Source: a virus. Taken from it: DNA of 36,761 nt. Where the stretch lies: positions 1 through 36,761 of IMG/VR virus record IMGVR_UViG_3300027852_000109; one strand, given 5' to 3'. This document shows, one piece after another, positions 15,229 to 18,074 of the stretch. Under the pieces are notes generated by a model. The model saw only the letters and a program-made list of their open reading frames with translations, was not told the DNA's origin and did no database searches. Each line of letters starts with the position of its first letter. Positions within the stretch are counted from its first letter, which is position 1. The position numbers and the translations under genes were made by a program.

Positions 15229-15295
15229 CACACTAAGCAAATATATGCCTAGTGTGAAGATTATTGCTGATGCCGTTAACACTATGTTAGTGTTA
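15229..15295 (-). promoter_or_regulatory. Pair of inverted repeats around a -7 element
   Basis: Inverted repeat 1 is CACACTA (15229-15235) with TAGTGTG (15250-15256). Its 14-base centre contains TATATTTG on the minus strand (15245-15238), a perfect TAnnTTTG. Inverted repeat 2 is TAACACTA (15277-15284), three bases, TAGTGTTA (15288-15295). Both share the ACACTA/TAGTGT half-site. No -33 TTTG is seen at 17-23 bases. The arrangement resembles a repressible promoter with two operators in front of the 110-residue gene. Confidence 0.45.
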
Positions 15296-15521
15296 TGTGA
15301 ATGTTCGAACCATTGTAAACTAGGTCACATTGTAACCAATTGTCTTTTACACTAAAGACAAATTCAGCGTTTAAATGTCTTGCCAATCCTCTTGACGTCT
15401 CAGTGTTCATATGTCCTTGTAAACAAAGTCTTCTTTCCTCTACAGTGATACTATAGAAATCGTTTAATCTGATTAAACCATTATTTGAAAGGTCGTTTAA
15501 AAGTTGTGCATACTCAATCAT
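15282..15521 (-). CDS. Hypothetical protein, 79 residues, first gene of long early operon
   Basis: Not recognised. The protein (MIEYAQLLNDLSNNGLIRLN) starts with a helix and continues with strands (CDLVYNGSNIHITLT at the end). It is the first coding region after the promoter at 15825-15857 and the structured leader. Its last codons overlap an inverted repeat. Confidence 0.7.
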   Translation of the reverse strand: MIEYAQLLNDLSNNGLIRLNDFYSITVEERRLCLQGHMNTETSRGLARHLNAEFVFSVKDNWLQCDLVYNGSNIHITLT

Positions 15522-15540: not shown

Positions 15541-15824
15541 AGTGGAATGCTTAAGGAGTCGAACCTTAGCGTATGTGCCTTTATTCCTTTATGCCTATCT
15601 GTGTGGAGTCGGCAAATTACCCGATGACTCTTTTTGGTGTTGTCATTTCTACCTTTAGACTTTCCGTTCTAATGCGGTGCGATTATTCGAGATACCTTTT
15701 AGCCTATAGAAGCCGGTGGTTATTCAAGGGCGCAACCCCTCTCAATTATTATGTGATTATCCTCACCCATATTGGGTAGGTGAGTGTTAAGCTATTCAAA
15801 GAACGTTTCCCTCATTGGGATGAG
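15541..15824 (-). ncRNA. Candidate long structured leader RNA with T-arm-like hairpin
   Basis: No coding frame is seen here. The RNA would start at about 15819, with hairpin CTCAT/ATGAG (15811-15824) at the very start. Two mutually exclusive hairpins follow at 15762-15784 (CTCACC/GGTGAG, or ACCCA/TGGGT). Near the end, on the minus strand, TAAGG-TTCGACT-CCTTA is a perfect copy of a tRNA T-arm (5-bp stem, TTCGA loop). It is followed by AGCATTC, which can pair with GAATAGCT near the 5' end (15787-15797 with 15545-15554, one bulge) or locally with GGAAT (15583-15587). D and anticodon arms were not found, so it is not called a tRNA or tmRNA. Confidence 0.5.
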
Positions 15825-15857
15825 CAAATATACATAATTAAAAAGTTATAAAACAAA
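15825..15857 (-). promoter_or_regulatory. Leftward early promoter 1
   Basis: On the minus strand TTTG (15857-15854), a 21-base spacer, TATATTTG (15832-15825). This fits the Bacteroidota consensus and is 31 of 33 bases identical to the promoter at 17761-17793. It should drive the structured leader and the 79-residue gene, and through them the long early operon. Confidence 0.8.
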
Positions 15858-16038
15858 TTTATTTATAATTAATTTCAAATAATTTTGATATAACTAATTA
15901 AGTATACTGATAATCAATAAGTTATGATTATACTTTTTTTGTTATCGTGTTTTTAGTGTTAACAATAGGTATGTTACAACATTAGTTTAACGCTAGGCTT
16001 TATACTATAAGGGTTTAAGTATATAAGTATACCGGAAC

Positions 16039-16215: not shown

Positions 16216-16285
16216 GAGGATACGGTCTTCATACAAAATAGTTTTGATATATCCAAGACTTTTATTAAAAAATATGGCAAAATTA

Positions 16286-16363
16286 CGTTTAATGGACTTT
16301 CTCACCTATACCGGATATAATATACCTTATTGGTTATAAAAGTGTCTTAGAACGGCTTAAAAT
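16286..16363 (+). repeat. 78-bp direct repeat, copy 1
   Basis: Shares with copy 2 (16442-16520) the blocks CGTTTAATGGACTTTCTCA (19 bases), TATACCTT and GTTATAAAAGTGTCTTA, plus GGATA and TTAAAAT, at almost the same spacing. On the plus strand it contains TGGACT, 17 bases, TATAAT, which looks like a sigma70 promoter of the E. coli type. Confidence 0.75.
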
Positions 16364-16441
16364 CGATTTTAGGCTCATATGAATAATAATTGTAACTACC
16401 AAATAAATAGGCAATTATTTTCACTTTATACCCTGAATTTG

Positions 16442-16520
16442 CGTTTAATGGACTTTCTCAGGGTAACTGGATACTATATACCTTTTAAGTTATAAAAGTG
16501 TCTTAAAATAGCCTTAAAAT
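16442..16520 (+). repeat. 78-bp direct repeat, copy 2
   Basis: Second copy of the repeat at 16286-16363, 156 bases away. The promoter-like spacing is kept: TGGACT, 17 bases, TACTAT. Differences from copy 1 fall in the spacers rather than in the blocks, which suggests that the blocks are selected. Confidence 0.75.
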
Positions 16521-17702: not shown

Positions 17703-17760
17703 AATGTATTGATTTAGAGCCAGTTAAGTCTGGCGTGTGTCGTTGGCAATATTGCCTCTG
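17703..17760 (-). promoter_or_regulatory. Structured leader of the GP88-like gene
   Basis: The RNA from the promoter at 17761-17793 begins with GGCAATATTGCC, a perfect 12-base palindrome (17745-17756), directly at the expected start point. A second hairpin follows: GCCAG, 6 bases, CTGGC (17719-17734). The ATG at 17702 comes 16 bases later, after an A-rich stretch. The palindrome may be an operator, a 5'-protecting hairpin, or both. Confidence 0.6.
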
Positions 17761-17793
17761 CAAATATACATAATAAATAAGTTATAAAACAAA
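17761..17793 (-). promoter_or_regulatory. Leftward early promoter 2
   Basis: On the minus strand TTTG (17793-17790), 21 bases, TATATTTG (17768-17761). It is 31/33 identical to promoter 1 (15825-15857), including the spacer, which is far more than the sigma factor needs, so the two are duplicates or share a regulator. It drives the GP88-like gene. Confidence 0.82.
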
Positions 17794-17804
17794 TTATAAA
17801 TGGA

Positions 17805-17812: not shown

Positions 17813-17984
17813 AATAAAAACAAAAAAATTTAATATCCTAATAATTTAACACTTTTCTTTCTGACTGACAGACTGGCAAATCCAAGTAAACCGGATGACA
17901 ATATGGCACAAAAAAAAAGCATCCTTTTCAGCCGTATGAAAAATGAAGCCAGGATCGTCTGAGTACCTCACAAAAATATCGTAC

Positions 17985-18058
17985 ATACAACCTCTATAAC
18001 TTATTTAGTATGGTGGTCTAACTAGAAAAATAAGAAGGATACAACCTCTATCACTTAT
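17985..18058 (+). repeat. 20-bp direct repeat upstream of the late operon
   Basis: ATACAACCTCTATAACTTAT (17985-18004) and ATACAACCTCTATCACTTAT (18039-18058) differ at one base and lie 54 bases apart, close to five helical turns. They end 16 bases before the first late gene and are placed where a late activator or a phage-specific promoter would act. No Bacteroidota-type promoter was seen in them. Confidence 0.65.
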
Positions 18059-18074
18059 ATATCATAGGGAAGGA

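Follow-up and report, generated by a model that had tools for sequence, protein, structure and literature searches.

The stretch at positions 15541-15857 (minus strand) of a virus record from IMG/VR, whose full length of 36,761 nucleotides is referred to here as the window, encodes, to judge from the pattern of changes between two related phages, what is nearly certainly a conserved, multi-hairpin structured RNA of approximately 280 bases. The stretch is strongly supported as the 5' leader of a 15-kb leftward early operon, since promoter, position and direction are conserved, nine compensatory changes were found and no coding frame is shared between the phages. The source is best explained as a siphophage of Bacteroidota, with the leader representing the 5' untranslated part of the leftward early transcript. 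Regarding function, a boxA-nucleated, nut/put-like processive antitermination element acting in cis is tentatively proposed, being the likeliest of the readings considered, at somewhat below an even chance.

Within the window, packaging and structural genes are located on the right, and a run of minus-strand genes extends from position 15521 to 190; the leader lies upstream of this run. Two features frame it:

15825..15857, minus strand: early promoter, composed of a -33-like TTTG (15857-15854), a 21-nt spacer and the -7 box TATATTTG (15832-15825)
15282..15521, minus strand: first early gene (79 aa), with its start codon at 15521

The arrangement TTTG-21-TATATTTG fits the Bacteroidota sigma-A promoter consensus TTTG / TAnnTTTG (PMC7366714), and since the -7 box of this phylum sits at -12 to -5 (PMC9723704), the transcription start was placed at about 15820. 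Transcription of the leader would thus run from about 15820 to just before the start codon at 15521. A 36-nt block comprising the promoter (15824-15859) is duplicated at 17760-17795 with 94% identity, the second copy also preceding a minus-strand gene. This copy serves the gene of a gp88-family protein (PF17338; 16962-17702, minus strand), which lacks the structured leader. These results agree with the preliminary description of this DNA, in which the stretch had been placed between a strong promoter and the first early gene and interpreted as a structured leader of the early operon.

Likewise, the statement that no gene fills the stretch was borne out. No minus-strand open reading frame of at least 40 aa fills 15541-15857; the sole frame of at least 40 aa across it, encoding 68 aa on the plus strand (15573-15779), has no counterpart of at least 50 aa in the related phage L001 introduced below, and any reading frame shared across the leader is broken by indels, so that no coding frame is conserved between the two phages. 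For the first early gene, neither a family match nor, on using it as a search probe, any relative was found. A terminator-like site on the minus strand was not detected between 14500 and 17000, and hence neither in the leader nor before the first gene, which disfavours a simple attenuator. Further elements of the window include a terminator-like hairpin of ten pairs within the early operon (4790-4766, minus strand), two 83-nt direct repeats with 78% identity (16280-16362 and 16436-16518) in the non-coding region of about 1 kb to the right of the early promoter, and two 36-nt direct repeats (78%; 17972-18061) immediately ahead of the packaging and structural genes that run rightward, the latter repeats possibly being late promoter or operator elements.

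The IMG/VR relative L001 (contig L141) was found by a terminase search, its terminase protein being 81% identical to that of the window, while the nearest cultured terminases, from phages of Leeuwenhoekiella, Olleya and Nonlabens, reached only about 40%. Between the window and L001, the leaders share 72% identity over 230 nt, comparable to the DNA of the terminase-portal region (71%), and the first genes behind them (79 aa in the window versus 67 aa in L001) show no detectable similarity. In the leader alignment, identical blocks of 20, 19 and 14 nt are separated by variable stretches, and conservation continues as far as the 3' end of the element, which lies some 17 bases short of the first start codon:

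15787..15806, minus strand: 20-nt block ACGTTCTTTGAATAGCTTAA, identical in L001, including the boxA-like sequence GTTCTTTGAAT
15594..15612, minus strand: 19-nt block CCGACTCCACACAGATAGG, identical in L001 in the alignment
15565-15552, minus strand: 14-nt block GGTTCGACTCCTTA, identical in L001, part of the T-arm-like hairpin
15552..15568, minus strand: T-arm-like hairpin TAAGG-TTCGACT-CCTTA, stem imperfect in L001
15538..15545, minus strand: conserved 3' end of the element in the alignment, CCACTAAC, followed by an AU-rich stretch and the first start codon

The changed stretches between the identical blocks correspond largely to the arms of hairpins. The alignment was built from sequence alone. 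The following hairpins were recognised:

15762..15784, minus strand: hairpin A, 7 pairs and a 9-nt loop, directly 3' of the boxA block; three compensatory double changes and one one-sided change (U-G/U-A)
15727..15740, minus strand: hairpin B, 4 pairs; one compensatory change, no broken pair
15655..15672, minus strand: hairpin D, 5 pairs; three compensatory changes, no broken pair
15624..15646, minus strand: hairpin E, 5 pairs; two compensatory changes; its 13-nt loop AACACCAWAAAGA differs by one base between the window and L001
15610..15623, minus strand: hairpin F (weak), 3 pairs with the loop GTAATTTG; one one-sided change, C-G to U-G

In total, nine double-sided pair changes and no broken pair were counted in hairpins A, B, D, E and F. 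This number was reached in none of 500 shuffles, and sliding the pairing partners left only zero or one such change. When local helices carrying two or more double changes were searched for blindly, four were found in the leader, compared with a mean of 0.135 and a maximum of three in 200 column shuffles; as a control, the terminase region of the same two phages gave 0.27 to 0.41 such helices per equal length, none of them with three double changes. Three G-U pairs (alignment columns 62-78, 65-75 and 220-233) would be A-C mismatches on the plus strand, indicating that the folded molecule is the minus-strand RNA, and hairpin A was lost when the helix finder was run on the plus strand. Folding energies were no better than those of shuffled sequences (z of -0.17 for the window and -0.57 for L001), and the structure, which an energy criterion by itself would not have revealed, is thus supported by the covariation. 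Two hairpins described previously as mutually exclusive at 15762-15784 were separated by this analysis, as hairpin A covaries, whereas the inner ACCC/GGGU hairpin has no counterpart in L001. The hairpin suggested at the transcription start point has none there either, and the proposal that alternative hairpins form a switch is not supported, only one of the two being conserved and the leader containing no minus-strand terminator-like site.

A boxA-like sequence in the leader had been missed in the preliminary description. Bacterial RNA polymerase is kept going through rRNA genes by a signal known as boxA. The boxA-like sequence, GTTCTTTGAAT, is located at 15804-15794 (minus strand), some 17 bases downstream of the presumed start and within the 20-nt block identical in both phages. 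The boxA is the binding site of NusB-S10, with a gammaproteobacterial consensus GYTCTTTAANA (PMC5725501). Among 27 Bacteroidota rrn loci scanned, several of them truncated, GTTC(T/A)TTGANA or a close variant was present in 17 of the 16S leaders and 14 of the 16S-23S spacers. The place and form of this motif are those expected of a boxA; it recurs among the rrn loci L178-L207, for instance as GATCATTGACA in Chryseobacterium. The phage sequence matches it at 10 of 11 positions, the 11th base being T for A. None of the 23 distinct rrn boxA sites gathered has this T, but the pattern used to gather them itself demanded A at this position. In a ranking by a matrix derived from these rrn sites of sampled Bacteroidota, the phage site came fourth among the window's roughly 73,500 positions and second in contig L141. 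It lies 28 (window) and 44 (L001) bases past the start of the -7 box, which places it between 17 and about 33 bases from the 5' end of the RNA in the two phages. A chance match at such a place was estimated at approximately 0.3% (4/73,500 over about 50 positions), its conservation not yet being weighed in this value. The shorter string GTTCWTTGA is by itself not rare in the window (two found, 1.63 expected). Hairpin A follows the boxA-like site at a distance of 9-10 nt without an indel. A second copy of TTGAATA (CCTTGAATA), situated after hairpin B, was considered as a second boxA and rejected, as its rrn score was far below that of the first.

Under the antitermination reading, the boxA-like GUUCUUUGAAU, located some 17 bases from the start of the RNA, would be bound by the host NusB-S10 pair. 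The downstream hairpins and conserved loops might bring in further elongation factors or make direct contact with the polymerase, which, thus modified, would then read through the 15-kb early operon. Transcription, the antitermination step and the function of the boxA are all inferred; the long run of genes in the same direction downstream of the leader is cited in favour of this reading. The element resembles the lambda nut sites (boxA plus boxB, acting with NusB/NusE and the phage N protein) in its position directly after an early promoter, in the succession of a boxA-like site, a short spacer and a hairpin, and in the long early operon downstream. The lambda boxB is a short hairpin; in contrast, hairpin A is built of 7 pairs closing a 9-nt loop, its stem and loop are unlike boxB, and about 200 further structured bases follow in the leader. 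N-like or Nus-like phage proteins were not recognised among the nearest early genes tested, and proteins of the N type are short and diverse. With the antiterminator RNA of the HK022 putL and putR sites, the leader shares an early-promoter-proximal position and a multi-hairpin architecture. The put RNA is about 70 nt long, forms two stem-loops and contacts RNA polymerase with no dedicated trans-acting protein factor (PMC9378689), whereas the phage leader is about 280 nt long, begins with a boxA-like sequence and contains four or more covarying hairpins. Compared with the boxA of Bacteroidota rrn leaders and spacers, found near the 16S/23S genes at most loci checked, the phage site differs in its 11th base, in the absence of rRNA downstream and in an unrelated surrounding structure. 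Counted against antitermination were the unremarkable folding energy and a length far exceeding that of nut or put sites. Confidence in this reading was held below even because only two sequences carry the element, three cultured relatives have no comparable site and no phage factor was recognised. A bolder version, which we consider doubtful, is that the leader belongs to an undescribed class of large phage RNAs: the boxA would recruit the antitermination machinery that serves host rRNA, and a folded 200-base body including a T-loop module would take the role played elsewhere by N proteins or put RNAs.

In the searches run, the element was found only in the window and L001. Searches for DNA homologues of the leader in phages and plasmids gave nothing meaningful. 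A covariance model of its 83-nt core detected nothing in 395 Bacteroidota genomes, an empty result that shows little in a set lacking a positive control, and among the terminase relatives it returned only the window and L001. Near promoters, neither the three cultured relatives (L227-L229) nor most of the distant relatives showed a boxA match of comparable quality. IMG/VR pattern scans with five conserved strings gave, beyond the contig of L001 and a group of four related contigs, apparent chance matches that were mostly tRNA-like or coding. These contigs belong to a different group of Bacteroidota-like phages and repeat a 16-mer of the leader, CGACTCCACACAGATA, at L006 8123-8138, L008 1184-1199, L009 930-945 and L010 1264-1279, where it falls in conserved non-coding DNA flanked by a terminator and a gene. 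The flanking structure is unlike that of the leader, and given the size of the collection a chance match is possible. Matches of the same 16-mer in species genomes fell within apparent coding sequence and were judged to be chance.

Among the alternatives to antitermination, another type of cis-regulatory leader, one that sets translation or stability of the early mRNA by binding a small molecule or a protein of phage or host origin, was regarded as rather unlikely but the most serious competitor. The boxA likeness would then be due to chance or to Nus-mediated repression, as at E. coli suhB; indeed, repression is another known function of a boxA located in a 5' UTR (PMC5725501). Conservation up to the end of the element, so close to the first start codon, speaks for such a role, but no known riboswitch or leader family was matched, the minus strand offers no terminator, and the first gene differs between the two phages, which makes gene-specific control less likely. 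A separate non-coding RNA acting in trans, such as a decoy or an antisense RNA, appears improbable, whether cut out of the early transcript or terminated ahead of the first gene. It would account for the long conserved 19-nt and 14-nt blocks outside the hairpins and for the conserved T-loop string; in this reading, the T-loop part would assist in processing or in the binding of a tRNA-handling protein. Against it stand the missing terminator between element and first gene and the failure of L001 to keep the closing helix and the T-stem. That the inverted repeats only resemble RNA hairpins and belong to a DNA element (repeated operator, origin or attachment-type site) is very improbable: such repeats can be kept in DNA too, and the T-arm string resembles the tRNA 3' ends used as attachment sites, but the three G-U pairs are consistent only with a minus-strand RNA, hairpin A is lost on the plus strand, the arms comprise just 4-7 bases with loops of 6-13 bases, and no integrase was recognised among the subset of window proteins scanned. 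Group I/II introns and a phi29-type pRNA were dropped by eye, as no conserved core was visible.

A tRNA-like or tmRNA-like RNA, the fold favoured in the preliminary description, is hardly credible, and its tRNA/tmRNA identity was rejected since ARAGORN found no tRNA or tmRNA gene in the window or L001, Rfam 15 gave no family at the gathering score and no tRNA, tmRNA or other meaningful match up to an E-value of 10, and covariation kept neither closure nor T-stem. The string described as a perfect T-arm is present at 15568-15552, with a 5-bp stem and a TTCGACT loop (GGTTCRANTCC occurs once in the window, 0.10 expected), and its T-loop letters are kept in L001, but the T-stem there has one U-U mismatch without compensation. 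Similarly, AGCATTC (15551-15545) is able to pair with GAATAGCT in the window, as proposed for closure of the whole RNA, but this acceptor-like helix breaks in L001, where four of seven pairs are lost (two unpaired, two deleted) with no compensation. The spacing from the T-arm to CCA differs between the two phages and fits a tRNA in neither; moreover, the leader has no acceptor, D or anticodon arm. These losses, together with the silence of ARAGORN and Rfam, the absence of the inner alternative hairpin and the start-site hairpin from L001 and the lack of a terminator-like site, argue against both a tRNA-like RNA and a terminator switch. Rather than being part of a tRNA, the T-loop motif probably provides a local contact, either tertiary or to a protein.

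The passage of RNA polymerase through the long early operons of Bacteroidota phages is little described, and a full-text literature search retrieved no paper on boxA-based antitermination in these phages. Even if it is not an antiterminator, the leader represents a new covarying RNA without an Rfam entry. If the antitermination reading is true, the leader would, as far as the literature searched shows, be without precedent as a processive antitermination RNA of Bacteroidota phages; it would extend the theme known from lambda and HK022 into a dominant gut and marine phylum, and would provide both a test bed for Nus function in Bacteroidota and a part for the expression of long operons.
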